This document shows, piece after piece, positions 30,293 to 36,576 of a stretch of 41,529 bases of DNA (position 1 is the stretch's first letter; each line of letters begins with the position of its first letter). The DNA is from Methylococcaceae bacterium. GTDB taxonomy: Bacteria; Pseudomonadota; Gammaproteobacteria; Methylococcales; Methylomonadaceae. The stretch spans positions 1-41,529 of the forward strand of contig JAJRDU010000274.1 of the NCBI GenBank assembly GCA_028748685.1, read 5' to 3'. Position numbers and translations under genes: made by a program. The notes below the pieces were generated by a model that did no database searches, had not been told where the DNA came from, and was given only the letters and a program-made list of their open reading frames with translations.

Positions 30293-30319
30293 TTGATATT
30301 TCAATAATTGTTGTATAGT
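30293..30319 (+). promoter_or_regulatory. putative ars promoter/operator
   Basis: TTGATA (30293-30298), 15-nt spacer, TATAGT (30314-30319); spacer contains caat-a-attg dyad that could serve an ArsR-type repressor. Confidence 0.45.
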
Positions 30320-30325
30320 TGCCCT

Positions 30326-30700
30326 ATGGATAAGCAACTCGCAACGACAATCTTCGAATCCCTGGCTTCCGGCGTGCGGCTGGATGTTTACCGGCTGCTG
30401 GTCAAGAACGCCCCCAACGGCCTGGTCGCCGGCGAAATCGCTACCCAATTAGCTCTGCCGCCGACCAATCTGTCCTTTCATCTCAAGGCCTTGACCCAGG
30501 CCGGCTTGCTAAGCGTAGTTCAGGAAGGCCGCTACCAGCGCTACCGCGCCAATCTCGCGGTGATGCGGGATTTGATCGGGTATCTGACCGCCGAATGTTG
30601 CACCGGCCATCCCGAGCAGTGCTTCGAAACCGATGCGGCGGCCGGCTGCTGCGATGCCAAACCCACACTTTCATCTACACCCACGGACTCGACATCATGA
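30326..30700 (+). CDS. arsR: ArsR family transcriptional repressor (arsenic-responsive)
   Basis: FESLASGVRLDVYRLLVKNAPNGLVAGEIATQLALPPTNLSFHLKALTQAGLLSVVQEGRYQRYRANLAVMRDLIGYLTAECCTGHPEQC; winged helix plus C-terminal CC...C; first gene of an ars operon. Confidence 0.95.
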   Translation: MDKQLATTIFESLASGVRLDVYRLLVKNAPNGLVAGEIATQLALPPTNLSFHLKALTQAGLLSVVQEGRYQRYRANLAVMRDLIGYLTAECCTGHPEQCFETDAAAGCCDAKPTLSSTPTDSTS

Positions 30701-31197
30701 ACGTGCTGTTTCTTTGTACCGGCAATTCCTGCCGTTCCATCCTCGGCGAAGCGACTTTCAACCATCTGGCGCCGGAAGGCTGGCGGGCATTGAGTGCCGG
30801 CAGCAAGCCCACAGGCCAGGTGCATCCGCGTTCGCTGGCGCTGCTGAATCGGGAAGGCATCTCGACCGAAGGCTATTACAGCAAGTCCTGGAACGACCTG
30901 CCTGTGACGCCGGACATCGTGCTCAGCGTCTGCGGCAACGCTGCCAACGAAACCTGCCCGGCTTATCTGGGCCCGGTATTGCGTAGTCACTGGGGCGTCG
31001 AAGATCCGGCTCACGCCACCGGCACCGATGAAGAAATCGACGCCTCGTTCATGACCGCCTACCGCATCCTGCGCCATCGCATCGAAACCTTTCTGGCGCT
31101 GCCGCTGGATGAATTGCGGAATGATCCGGAGCGACTGAAGGCGGAACTGGACCGCATAGGCAGCTTGTTACCCTCACCCCAGCCCCTCTCCCACTAG
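30697..31197 (+). CDS. arsC: arsenate reductase (low-molecular-weight phosphatase fold)
   Basis: MNVLFLCTGNSCRSILGEATFNHLAPEGWRALSAGS...SWNDLPVTPDIVLSVCGNAANETCPAYLG; overlaps the arsR stop. Confidence 0.94.
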   Translation: MNVLFLCTGNSCRSILGEATFNHLAPEGWRALSAGSKPTGQVHPRSLALLNREGISTEGYYSKSWNDLPVTPDIVLSVCGNAANETCPAYLGPVLRSHWGVEDPAHATGTDEEIDASFMTAYRILRHRIETFLALPLDELRNDPERLKAELDRIGSLLPSPQPLSH

Positions 31198-31207
31198 GAG
31201 AGGGGCT
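31181..31207 (+). terminator. intra-operonic hairpin with T-tract overlapping the arsC stop codon
   Basis: agcccctctcc-cacta-ggagaggggct then tttt; the arsC TAG (31195-31197) lies at the loop/stem junction. Confidence 0.65.
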
Positions 31208-31247: not shown

Positions 31248-31859
31248 ATGATGAGCAGTATTCAAATATTCGACCCCGCCCTGTGTTGCAGCACCGGCGT
31301 CTGCGGCGTGGACGTCGATCAGCAATTGGTGGCTTTTTCGGCCGATGCCGATTGGGCCAAGCAAAACGGCGCGCAAATCGAGCGCTTCAATCTGGCACAG
31401 CAACCCATGGCTTTTGCGGAAAACCCGGTCGTCAAGGCGTTTCTGGAAAGCTCCGGCGCCGAAGCCTTGCCTGTTATTCTAGTTGATGGCGCGTTGATGC
31501 TCGTAGGACGTTATCCCAGACGAGACGAACTGGCACAATGGGCCGGAATCAACGCCTCGGCGCCAAGCCAACTAAGCGAGCAAGTGGCGGAATTGATCGC
31601 GCTGGGCGCGTCGATAGCCGCCGGCTGCGAACCCTGTTTCAAGTTCCATTACGACAAAGCCCATAAGCTCGGCGTCGACAAACAAACCATGCAACAAGCA
31701 GTCGAAATCGGCGACATGGTCAAACGGGCCTCGGCCAAAAACATGCTGGAACTGGCCGGACGCATCTTAGGTAATCCCACGGCCGACAGCGCCACTTCCG
31801 CCTGCTGCGGCGGCACATCGGAAAAGAAGACGACCGACAGCGGCGGTTGCTGCCGTTAA
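31248..31859 (+). CDS. arsD: ArsD arsenite metallochaperone fused to a C-terminal AhpD/CMD-like domain
   Basis: ArsD core IQIFDPALCCSTGVCGVDVDQQLVAFSADADWAKQNGAQIERFNLAQQPMAFAENPVVKAFLESSGAEALPVILVDG; then ELIALGASIAAGCEPCFKFHYDKAHKLGVDKQTMQQAVEIGDMVKRASAKNMLELA (CxxCxxxH); then tail ACCGG...GGCCR. Confidence 0.92.
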   Translation: MMSSIQIFDPALCCSTGVCGVDVDQQLVAFSADADWAKQNGAQIERFNLAQQPMAFAENPVVKAFLESSGAEALPVILVDGALMLVGRYPRRDELAQWAGINASAPSQLSEQVAELIALGASIAAGCEPCFKFHYDKAHKLGVDKQTMQQAVEIGDMVKRASAKNMLELAGRILGNPTADSATSACCGGTSEKKTTDSGGCCR

Positions 31860-31884
31860 CGTGCAAAAAGCCGGAGACCTTGCG

Positions 31885-33642
31885 ATGAAATTCCTGATCA
31901 ACCCGCCCAAGTTTTTGTTTTTCACCGGCAAGGGCGGTGTCGGCAAGACTTCCATCGCCTGCGCCACGGCGATCAGGCTGGCGGATGGCGGCCGGCAAGT
32001 GCTGCTGGTCAGCACCGACCCGGCTTCCAATGTCGGCCAGGTGTTCGGCATAGCCATAGGCAACAGGATTACCGCTATTCCGGCAGTGCCGGGTTTGGCG
32101 GCGCTGGAAATTGATCCGCAAGCGGCGGCACAAGCCTACCGGGACCGTATCGTCGGCCCGGTGCGCGGCTTGTTGCCGGAAACGGTGGTGAAAGGCATAG
32201 AGGAACAACTGTCCGGCGCCTGCACCACGGAAATCGCCGCGTTCGACGAGTTTACCGCGCTGCTGACCGATTCGGCGCTGACCTCAGCTTACGATCACAT
32301 CGTGTTCGACACCGCGCCGACCGGCCACACCATACGCCTGTTGCAACTGCCTGGTGCCTGGAGTGGCTTTCTGGAAACCGGCAAGGGCGATGCCTCCTGC
32401 TTGGGTCCCTTGGCTGGCCTGGAAAAGCAGCGAGAGCAATACAAGGCCGCCGTGGATGCGTTGGCCGACGAAACCCGTACCCGGCTGGTTCTGGTGGCCC
32501 GCGCCCAACAAGCCACCTTGCGCGAAGTCGCCCGCACCCATCGGGAACTGACCGGGATTGGCCTGCGCAATCAATATCTGGTCATCAACGGCATTTTGCC
32601 CCATATCGAGATAGCCAACGATCCCTTGGCTGCGGCCATACACGAACGCGAACAAACGGCATTGCAAGCCATCCCGGACGTATTGCAAAGCTTGCCTAGT
32701 GACGAACTCATGTTGAAGCCCTTCAATCTGGTGGGACTGGATGCCCTGCGCCAATTGCTGGTCGACACGCCAACGCAAGAGCCAATCACGGTGGATTCGC
32801 CGATAGAGCTGGAGCAACCTGGTCTTTCCGAACTGGTCGAGCAGATTGCCCAAGACGGCCACGGTTTGGTGATGCTGATGGGCAAGGGCGGGGTGGGCAA
32901 GACCACGCTGGCCGCCGCGATTGCCGTCGAACTTGCGTATCGGGGACTACCTGTACATCTGACCACTTCCGATCCGGCCGCGCATTTGACCGAAACTCTG
33001 GATGGCTCTTTGGATAACCTGACCGTCAGCCGCATCGATCCCTTCGCAGAAACCGAAACTTATCGCCGGCATGTGGTGGAGACCAAGGGCGCGAAACTCG
33101 ACACACAAGGCCGTGCCTTGCTGGAAGAAGACCTGCGCTCGCCTTGTACCGAGGAAATCGCCGTGTTTCAGGCCTTTTCGCGGATCATTCGCGAGGCCGG
33201 CAAGAAATTCGTGGTGATGGACACCGCGCCGACCGGCCATACCTTGCTGCTGCTGGACGCGACCGGCGCTTATCACCGTGAAATATCGCGGCAGATGGTC
33301 AGTGGCATTCATTACCTGACGCCTATGATGCAGTTGCAAGACCCCAAGCAAACCAAGGTGCTGATTGTCACGCTGGCGGAAACCACGCCGGTACTGGAAG
33401 CCGTCCATCTGCAGGACGATCTGCGCCGCGCCGGCATAGAACCTTGGGCCTGGGTGATCAACCAAAGCGTTGCCGCCACGAAGGTAAATTCGCAATTGCT
33501 ACGCCAGCGCGCCGCCAACGAAGTGCGTGAAATCGAAGCGGTCGCCAATCGGCATGCCAGCCGCTATGCCGTGGTGCCCTTATTGCAGCGGGAACCGGTA
33601 GGTGCGGAACGCTTATTGGAAATCGCATCCTTCAAGCATTAA
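31885..33642 (+). CDS. arsA: arsenite-stimulated ATPase ArsA (two tandem nucleotide-binding halves)
   Basis: Two deviant P-loops FFTGKGGVGKTSIACA and LMGKGGVGKTTLAAA; two DTAPTGHT motifs. Confidence 0.97.
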   Translation: MKFLINPPKFLFFTGKGGVGKTSIACATAIRLADGGRQVLLVSTDPASNVGQVFGIAIGNRITAIPAVPGLAALEIDPQAAAQAYRDRIVGPVRGLLPETVVKGIEEQLSGACTTEIAAFDEFTALLTDSALTSAYDHIVFDTAPTGHTIRLLQLPGAWSGFLETGKGDASCLGPLAGLEKQREQYKAAVDALADETRTRLVLVARAQQATLREVARTHRELTGIGLRNQYLVINGILPHIEIANDPLAAAIHEREQTALQAIPDVLQSLPSDELMLKPFNLVGLDALRQLLVDTPTQEPITVDSPIELEQPGLSELVEQIAQDGHGLVMLMGKGGVGKTTLAAAIAVELAYRGLPVHLTTSDPAAHLTETLDGSLDNLTVSRIDPFAETETYRRHVVETKGAKLDTQGRALLEEDLRSPCTEEIAVFQAFSRIIREAGKKFVVMDTAPTGHTLLLLDATGAYHREISRQMVSGIHYLTPMMQLQDPKQTKVLIVTLAETTPVLEAVHLQDDLRRAGIEPWAWVINQSVAATKVNSQLLRQRAANEVREIEAVANRHASRYAVVPLLQREPVGAERLLEIASFKH

Positions 33643-33651
33643 CCGGAGAAG

Positions 33652-34713
33652 ATGATGAATCAAGAAGTTTGCTCGAGAACAGGCCTGTCTTTCCTGGACC
33701 GTTTCCTGACGCTGTGGATTTTCACGGCCATGGCGGTGGGCGTTGGCATCGGCTTTGTTTTTCCTTCCGAGGTCAATGCCGTCAGCCAGGCCGTTTCGGT
33801 CGGCACCACCAACATCCCGATAGCGATCGGCCTGATCGTGATGATGTATCCGCCACTGGCCAAGGTGCATTACGAGGAACTGGGCGATGTGTTTCGCAAC
33901 TGGCGGATATTGGGCGTTTCGCTGCTACAAAACTGGGCCATCGGCCCGCTGCTGATGTTCGTGCTGGCGATTGTGTTCTTGCGCGATTATCCGGAATACA
34001 TGACCGGCCTGATCCTGATCGGCCTGGCCCGCTGCATCGCGATGGTGATCGTCTGGAACGAGCTGGCGCGCGGCGACAATGAATATGCGGCTGGGTTGGT
34101 CGCCTTCAACAGCGTTTTCCAGGTATTGTTTTACAGCGTCTATGCCTGGCTGTTTATCAGCGTGCTGCCGCCTTTGTTCGGCATGCAGGGTAGTCTGGTC
34201 GATATTACGATAGGCGAGATCGCCAAAAGCGTGTTCATTTATCTGGGCATCCCGTTCATCGCCGGCTTCGCCACCCGTTTCGTGGCGGTGCGCGCCAAGG
34301 GCAAGGACTGGTACCAAAACCACTTCGTGCCCAGGATCAGCCCGCTGACATTGATCGCGCTGCTGTTCACCATCGTGGTGATGTTTTCGCTGAAGGGCGA
34401 CTTGATCGTGCAACTGCCGCTGGACGTGGTGCGCATCGCCGTGCCGCTGCTGATTTATTTCGTGGTGATGTTCTTGGTCAGTTTCATGATGGGAAGGGCC
34501 ATAAACGCCGGCTACGCCAAGACCACCACGCTGGCTTTTACGGCCGCCAGCAACAACTTCGAGCTGGCGATTGCGGTGGCGGTGGCGGTGTTCGGCATCA
34601 ACAGCGGCGCGGCATTCGCGGCGGTCATAGGGCCGCTGATCGAGGTGCCGGTGATGATTGCCCTGGTGAATGTGGCGTTTTTCTTTCGCAAGCAGGGATA
34701 CATCAAAGACTGA
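33652..34713 (+). CDS. acr3: ACR3 family arsenite efflux transporter
   Basis: [28 protein letters not shown]...[22 protein letters not shown]...[43 protein letters not shown]...[19 protein letters not shown]. Confidence 0.97.
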
Positions 34714-35003: not shown

Positions 35004-35531
35004 ATGTCCAAAGACTCTTCCGGTTTCCTGCATACCCTGTTTCAGCGCCATGCTCGCGAAATCGGCAGCTTCGTACGCGGACGCTGGCCCAAGGAACAGG
35101 ATGTGACCGACATCGTCCAGGAAACCTTTCTGCGGCTGTCGCAAACTCCCGAACCGGAAACCATCCTGAATCCCAGGGCCTTCCTGTTTCAGACCGCCGC
35201 TAATCTGACCGTCGACCGACATCGCCGCCGCGAGACCCGCGAACGCTACGACGAACCGGATGCCGAAGTCGAGCATGTGGCTGACTCGGGTTTATCGCCG
35301 GAACACTACTGGCAAACCCATCAGCAATTGGAAAAATTTAGCGCCTGGCTGGACGAACTACCGGAGCTTCGACGCCATGCCTTCGTGCTGTACCGTATAG
35401 AGGGCTGCTCGCATGCCGAAATCGCCAAGCGGCTGGATATTTCGGTGCGTTGCTCCGAACGTTATGTGATGCTGGCGATGCAACACATCAGCGCCCGTCT
35501 CGGCGCGGAGCGGGATCAGGACTGGCGGTGA
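35004..35531 (+). CDS. ECF sigma factor, FecI type
   Basis: LFQRHAREIGSFVRGRWPKEQDVTDIVQETFLRLSQ...NPRAFLFQTAANLTVDRHRRRETRE...LDELPELRRHAFVLYRIEGCSHAEIAKRLDISVRCSERYVMLAMQH. Confidence 0.94.
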   Translation: MSKDSSGFLHTLFQRHAREIGSFVRGRWPKEQDVTDIVQETFLRLSQTPEPETILNPRAFLFQTAANLTVDRHRRRETRERYDEPDAEVEHVADSGLSPEHYWQTHQQLEKFSAWLDELPELRRHAFVLYRIEGCSHAEIAKRLDISVRCSERYVMLAMQHISARLGAERDQDWR

Positions 35532-35601
35532 GCGTCATGCTTAACCGTCTACGATAATGTCCGGTAAACTGTGCCCACTTTGAAGTTAAACAATATCGAA
35601 C

Positions 35602-36576
35602 GTGACTGATACATCTAACTGCACCCAAGCTCATCGAGATCAGGCTATCGCTTGGTTGCTGCGCTTGCGCGACGCGCCGGCAGACACTTTGCTGGAACAG
35701 GCTTTTGCCGAATGGCTGGCGGCCAATCCCGCTCATCCGCTTGCCTACCAACAAGCGGAGGCACAATGGGCGTGGATGGACGCGTTTAAGGGACAGGGCT
35801 TTCGGGCGCGGGATGAGGCTTTGCGCTATAGACCGCCGGTTCACAAGCCTCTATGGCGGGGTTTGGCCGGCTACGGCATGGCCGCGACCGTGCTGTTGGG
35901 GGTAGGCTGGGCCATGTTTTCGCCGCAGGGTTGGTATGGATTGCCCCGCAGCTATGGCACCGATAAAGGCCAAAGGCAATCCCTGGCCTTATCCGATGGC
36001 TCCCATCTGGAGTTGAACACCGATACGGAGGTCAGGGTGCATTTCAATCATCACCAACGCCATGTCGATTTGGTGCGCGGCGAAGCCTTCTTTGAAGTCG
36101 GCCACGACGTGGAACGGCCATTTACCGTGCATGTCGGCAATGTCCTGATTCGCGACATCGGCACCGCTTTTGATGTCTACAAGCAATCCGGGCAAATCAG
36201 CGTGGCGGTGCGGGAAGGCGTCGTGGAAATGGAAGGCCAGGGCGAGCGCCGGGAAGTAAGCGCCGGCCAGCAATTGGCTTACGATAACGGTGGCCGTTTC
36301 GTTGAAGTATCGCAAGCGGATATAGCATCGGCTACCGCCTGGCGGCAGGGTCTCCTGCTATTCCGCGGCCGCAGGCTGGCAGAGGTACTTGCGGAGATAG
36401 GCCGCTACCACGACGTCGACATCCGCTTGCCCGATCCCAAACTCGCGGACTTGCGCGTCAACGGCAGCTTTCGCACCGAACAACTGGATAATATGCTCAA
36501 CGCCGTCGCCACGCTGCTGCCGGTTAATGTTAAGCGTATCGGCGAGAAGGAGATCGTGTTGGAGGCGGCCAGATAG
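35602..36576 (+). CDS. FecR family anti-sigma/transmembrane signal transducer
   Basis: DQAIAWLLRLRDAPADTLLEQAFAEWLAANPAHPLAYQQAEAQW...LALSDGSHLELNTDTEVRVHFNHHQRHVDLVRGEAFFEVGHDVERPFTVHVGNVLIRDIGTAFDVY; GTG start. Confidence 0.94.
   Translation: MTDTSNCTQAHRDQAIAWLLRLRDAPADTLLEQAFAEWLAANPAHPLAYQQAEAQWAWMDAFKGQGFRARDEALRYRPPVHKPLWRGLAGYGMAATVLLGVGWAMFSPQGWYGLPRSYGTDKGQRQSLALSDGSHLELNTDTEVRVHFNHHQRHVDLVRGEAFFEVGHDVERPFTVHVGNVLIRDIGTAFDVYKQSGQISVAVREGVVEMEGQGERREVSAGQQLAYDNGGRFVEVSQADIASATAWRQGLLLFRGRRLAEVLAEIGRYHDVDIRLPDPKLADLRVNGSFRTEQLDNMLNAVATLLPVNVKRIGEKEIVLEAAR

Follow-up and report, generated by a model that had tools for sequence, protein, structure and literature searches.

The arsD gene of the window (the whole analysed stretch of 41,529 nucleotides) encodes a fusion protein of 203 aa (31248..31859, + strand), in which a complete ArsD is followed by a helical domain of the AhpD/CMD type and by a tail that carries two Cys pairs. 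We believe that two things are new here, the ArsD-CMD fusion and a free CMD-CC gene in ars clusters, a short gene with the same CMD domain and its own Cys-pair tail, and that CMD-CC is the more open lead. Because CMD is fused to ArsD and its relatives occur as a separate gene in ars clusters, these results suggest that a direct link between the handling of arsenite and thiol chemistry is possible.

Architecture of the fusion protein

The arsD-CMD ORF has no interruption, starts with ATGATG and is preceded by an aaGGAGa ribosome-binding site. The joining of two ORFs by a frameshift or by assembly was considered and rejected, because independent genomes (70–83% identity) and more distant ones keep the reading frame intact; the single 203-aa ORF of the first-pass annotation is therefore real. 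The ArsD domain (residues 2-101; 31251..31550, + strand) matched PF06953 (1.1e-45) and the solved structure 3mwh (2.2e-42). The Pfam match covers residues 2-112 with 155 bits (cut-off 27), and NCBIfam chaperon_ArsD reached 135 bits (cut-off 90). The As(III) site, which had been read as CC-STGV-C, lies at C13, C14 and C19 as described, and these cysteines are invariant in 7/7 fusions. An AlphaFold model, built with seven fusion sequences, contains two confident domains, and its ArsD part is that of the solved ArsD 3kgk/3mwh by Foldseek (rmsd ~0.7-1.1 over ~100 aa). By profile, fold, As(III)-site cysteines and its place beside arsA, the window protein is an ArsD.

The second domain (residues 107-174; 31566..31769, + strand) was recognised by Pfam CMD PF02627 (7.7e-10; residues 103-158, 39.1 bits, cut-off 23) and NCBIfam ahpD_dom (32.4 bits, cut-off 27.8), and by alignment. 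Its model matched the AhpD-like 3bey with probability 1.00, rmsd 2.5 over 66 and an E-value of 2e-3, and AhpD 1me5/1gu9 with rmsd 1.0 over 51 at a weak E-value of about 1. When the domain was modelled separately, the 50 best structure matches were almost all AhpD/CMD. Since the E-values of the fold matches are modest (2e-3), motif, profile and fold were read jointly, and together they bear out the AhpD/CMD-like core with C127, C130 and H134. The extent proposed for it, 107-176, needed adjustment: the domain is there, while its helices reach to about residue 174, and the model predicts disorder for residues 178-203 (pLDDT below 50 from residue 178). This tail (31770..31856, + strand) carries the pairs C186-C187 and C201-C202 where they had been placed. 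The dN/dS between the window and its close relative G009 was ~0.08 for ArsD, ~0.18 for CMD and ~0.68 for the tail, and the CMD module is under purifying selection.

Studies have shown that the relay of Mycobacterium tuberculosis AhpD consists of Glu118, Cys130, His132, Cys133 and His137 (PMC3141380). The spacing E115-C127-C130-H134 of the window protein is identical to E118-C130-C133-H137, so four of the five relay residues are present. These four are invariant in the alignment of 7 fused and 12 free relatives, which makes thiol-disulphide chemistry more likely than a purely structural role. The position of His132 is taken by Pro129, and is Pro in all fused and free members, so the five-residue relay of the AhpD enzyme is incomplete; the enzyme-level profile TIGR00777 scored 20 bits against a cut-off of 192. 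No NCBIfam match to PcaC was obtained for the window protein, and the context is an ars operon, not aromatic degradation. In our reading of the sequence, the resulting CxPC motif recalls thioredoxins. The domain thus shares the helical hairpin and the Glu/CxxC/His spacing with the AhpD/CMD family (M. tuberculosis AhpD; PA0269; O27018, 3bey), whereas it differs in being minimal, in having Pro for His132, in being fused to ArsD and in its Cys-pair tail. Compared with R773 ArsD (3mwh/3kgk), the window protein has the whole ArsD fold, the three essential cysteines, the place before arsA and a Cys-pair tail, but an extra AhpD-type domain of ~70 residues separates the core from the terminal Cys pairs.

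The ars operon of the window

The fusion gene is part of an operon arsR-arsC-arsD-arsA-acr3 on the + strand. The arsR gene (30308..30700) encodes an ArsR/SmtB repressor with ECC...C C-terminal cysteines, supported by Pfam HTH_20/HTH_5 and by NCBIfam HTH_metalloreg at 51.2 bits, just below the cut-off of 55. It is followed by arsC (30697..31197), which encodes an arsenate reductase of the low-molecular-weight-phosphatase (thioredoxin) type with CTGNSCR and SVCGNAANETC (PF01451, 69 bits); its best NCBIfam, arsC_pI258_fam, scored 72.5 bits, below its equivalog cut-off. Judged by its closest family and by the expected cysteines, which are kept, this ArsC would be thioredoxin-dependent and is a possible electron acceptor. 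Downstream of the fusion gene are the arsA ATPase gene (31861..33642; TIGR04291, 919 bits) and the acr3 arsenite efflux pump gene (33652..34713; TIGR00832, 461 bits), both on the + strand. Redox genes are known to accompany ars operons, for example the arsT thioredoxin reductase (PMC12607644).

A GC-rich palindrome that can fold as an RNA hairpin lies between arsC and arsD, over the arsC stop codon (31181..31207). Its local RNA fold was stronger than that of shuffled sequences (z -2.5), and the left arm of the palindrome was not found in the retrieved loci of other genomes. In Bacillus CDB3, an arsC-arsD hairpin reduces the expression of the full operon (PMC4562236). On the 3' side of acr3, an ECF sigma gene and, after it, a gene for a FecR-like anti-sigma factor were read by eye from the ORFs (35004-36576); this is probably an ordinary iron-uptake regulator pair.

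Distribution of the fusion

The search for the same architecture among ArsD homologues, which the first-pass annotation had suggested, showed that it recurs at full length in seven genomes from four family-level lineages. The identity to the window fusion was 83% in G009, 74% in G040 (L022), 70% in G002, 55% in BMS3Bbin13 (G365, L023), about 52% in G832 and about 50% in G412; G009 and G002 are two-contig assemblies. G832 is of the window's order but of a different family, and G365 and G412 come from other families of the class. The ArsD sequences of G033, from the window's genus, and G059, from its family, are identical to those of Methylomonas koyamae (L024) and Methylovulum miyakonense (L028), respectively, so the window probably derives from Methylomonas. 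The fusion is rare, with 7 genomes among well over 700 searched. Three fusions (the window, G365 and G412) were found when 369 genomes were drawn evenly from the class, and none among 290 genomes from the class of G617, a different one in the same phylum. In most relatives, including close ones in the same genus, ArsD is plain, about 118 aa long, and ends in Cys pairs.

Every fusion sits within an ars cluster. The fusion gene is adjoined by arsA in the window, G009, G002, G365 and G412, and the G040 contig breaks inside arsA. G832 has the fusion and no ArsA anywhere in a genome rated 100% complete, while G843 (L095), of the same family, has arsA beside arsD. The ars cluster of G832 (L092) contains arsD-CMD, acr3, two arsC and arsI, without arsA.

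Plasmid-borne spread of the fusion was also considered and rejected, because the ArsD part had thousands of plasmid matches and the CMD part had none below E 0.001; what the CMD part did match on plasmids was generic CMD proteins alone, at E about 0.3. There was no CMD-bearing ArsD among the plasmid matches listed, and beyond these, one record covered at least 80% of the fusion query. The ArsD-CMD fusion was not found in phages. A Rhodococcus plasmid and Methylocapsa loci, which matched past residue 105, turned out to carry ordinary ArsDs.

The free CMD-CC gene

The free CMD-CC genes come from the gammaproteobacterial family f99, which includes G412, a genome with one fused and one free copy of the module. 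The set consisted of 14 loci (L051:3195-3533, L055 and L135-L146) with 12 intact copies of 92-114 aa. In the 369-genome draw, ars-type CMD modules scored at least 104 bits and all others at most 53 bits, and this gap indicates that the ars-type modules are a discrete group. An ars-type gene, defined by a tblastn match to proteins of the window, G412 and G483, was located at most 2.3 kb from the free gene in 10/14 loci, and in two CMD-CC loci the nearest ars-type match was a glyoxalase-type domain alone, with arsA, acr3 and arsD on the same stretch. No ars gene was present on the other four stretches. In G483, CMD-CC lies between two arsA genes and beside an ArsN2-monooxygenase gene; selenocysteine was considered for this free CMD match and rejected, as the TGA is upstream of the true start. 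G472 (L141:2874-4572), one of the 14 loci, has a row of arsR, CMD-CC and a gene for a methyltransferase that resembles ArsM and has a Cys-rich tail; this protein scored 188 bits to NF008823, below the cut-off of 263.

A SigZ-like ECF sigma gene lies directly after the free CMD-CC gene on the same strand in 13/14 loci, and this hints at signalling rather than catalysis. The free CMD-CC gene with the SigZ-like sigma gene may be a new component of ars systems or a sensor pair. A broader proposal is that CMD-CC is a component of arsenic resistance that has gone unrecognised, and that it occurs both free (with an ECF sigma gene, or between arsR and an arsM-like gene) and fused to ArsD, where it forms an As(III) carrier that is coupled to redox and able to serve Acr3 without ArsA, as in G832; we hold this to be tentative and rather doubtful.

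Origin of the fusion

The redox domain had been described as inserted before the CC tail of ArsD. Its position between the core and the Cys pairs is confirmed, and the insertion history is not, since the free CMD-CC protein is Cys-pair-tailed too. A Cys pair after residue 100 was found in 64/67 plain ArsDs, and one or more terminal Cys pairs in all 12 intact free CMD-CC proteins. Because both partners end in Cys pairs, joining arsD and a CMD-CC gene end to end would yield the same protein, and this history fits as well as insertion does. The tails are short and fast (dN/dS ~0.68), so their origin is not readable from them. The fused CMD domains formed one group in the tree (support 89/92), next to that of the free f99 proteins (84/90), and both groups lack full support. 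Separate origins of the fusion were considered as well: the fusions are scattered in the ArsD tree, but a single clade was not rejected (AU p 0.18) and the fused CMD domains group together.

Proposed function and alternative explanations

Our preferred, still speculative reading is that the window protein is an ordinary ArsD As(III) chaperone carrying an AhpD-type thiol-disulphide module (CMD-CC) in cis, and we give it a probability of about 0.4. The CxPC pair would cycle between dithiol and disulphide and reduce nearby thiols. Its target may be the ArsD As(III) site with the Cys-pair tail, which in the oxidised state are unable to bind As(III), and/or the disulphide between two cysteines of ArsC, the thioredoxin-type reductase whose gene lies just before arsD. 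The Cys pairs of the flexible tail could act as carriers of electrons or As(III) between the CMD module and the ArsD site, after which As(III) would be handed to ArsA or released to Acr3. The grounds for this reading are the four invariant relay residues, the selection on the module, the ars context and the arsT precedent; it is weakened by the Pro in place of His132 in all members, by the sigma gene that accompanies 13/14 free copies and by the lack of the module in most ArsDs. The coupling to the hand-off of As(III) to ArsA, proposed earlier, is plausible where arsA adjoins the fusion gene, but G832 shows that it cannot be the only role. We infer that the G832 fusion protein must work without ArsA, for example with Acr3 or as a store.

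The cysteines may also serve binding alone. CMD-CC would then be an extra As(III)-binding relay and oligomerisation platform without redox turnover, in which the CxPC and tail pairs feed the ArsD site and CMD-type oligomers, hexamers in relatives, increase the local number of sites. The Cys-pair tails on unrelated cluster proteins (free CMD-CC, ArsI/CadI-like, ArsN2-monooxygenase and ArsM-like), the mostly hexameric state of AhpD-like proteins (PMC3141380) and the retention of the fusion in G832 without ArsA are consistent with such a relay. A plain thiol site has no need of the AhpD-relay Glu and His, but both are invariant, and we consider pure binding somewhat unlikely. It is less likely that the module is a sensor or regulator, whose free form would govern the SigZ-like ECF sigma factor encoded next to it, in response to As(III) or thiol oxidation, and whose fused form would tune the repressor side of ArsD. 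The sigma gene beside 13/14 free copies speaks for it, as does R773 ArsD, in which the C-terminal Cys pairs are tied to regulation (repression) and Cys12/13/18 are the chaperone site (PMC4562236); however, homology revealed no SigZ-like gene in the retrieved stretches around the fusions, and the window's own ECF gene at 35004 precedes a FecR-like gene.

The replacement of His132 by Pro speaks against the idea that the module is a weak peroxidase, which, like AhpD together with AhpC, would protect the thiols of ArsD and ArsA against peroxides. PA0269, with Tyr for His132, still weakly reduces H2O2 (PMC3141380), but AhpD is chiefly an AhpC adaptor and no ahpC-like gene was noticed in the fusion operons, so this role seems improbable to us. 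A fusion that is neutral and tolerated but functionless in itself would agree with the rarity of the architecture; nevertheless, its retention over deep divergence, the invariant motif residues and the module dN/dS of ~0.18 make this explanation very unlikely.

Precedents and significance

No published ArsD fusion with a CMD/AhpD domain was found by a free-text literature search, in which subscription journals were thinly covered. The nearest precedents are the ArsN-ArsD fusions and the ArsM-AhpD selenoprotein. Published ars fusions include ArsN-ArsD, ArsR-ArsC, Acr3-ArsC and AqpS-ArsC (PMC6205960). They resemble the window fusion in joining ars proteins, ArsD included, whereas ArsN is a putative acetyltransferase and the window fusion carries a thiol-redox-type domain. 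The ArsM-AhpD domain selenoprotein family is listed in PMC13188914, and its NF041537 is among the best family-level matches of the window CMD domain. Here too an AhpD domain is fused to an arsenic enzyme, but the partner is the methyltransferase ArsM and the motif is CxxU with selenocysteine.

If the proposed function is true, arsenite chaperoning is tied to thiol redox state in one polypeptide. The small unnamed CMD-CC gene would be a possible new ars component, and G832 is a test case for the role of ArsD without ArsA. The fusion also bears on why AhpD domains recur beside arsenic proteins, ArsD here and ArsM elsewhere.

Many ars proteins seem to share C-terminal Cys pairs. Several other proteins were observed in the retrieved loci. 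L051:3653-5503 and L136:4899-6665 encode an ArsN2 acetyltransferase fused to an FAD-dependent oxidoreductase, and the L051 protein has a tail with several Cys pairs. A 287-aa protein at L052:482-1345 joins an LMW-type ArsC to a glyoxalase-like (VOC) domain, and an ArsI/CadI-family protein at L092:3957-4385 ends in the C-terminal SSCCSPSK.
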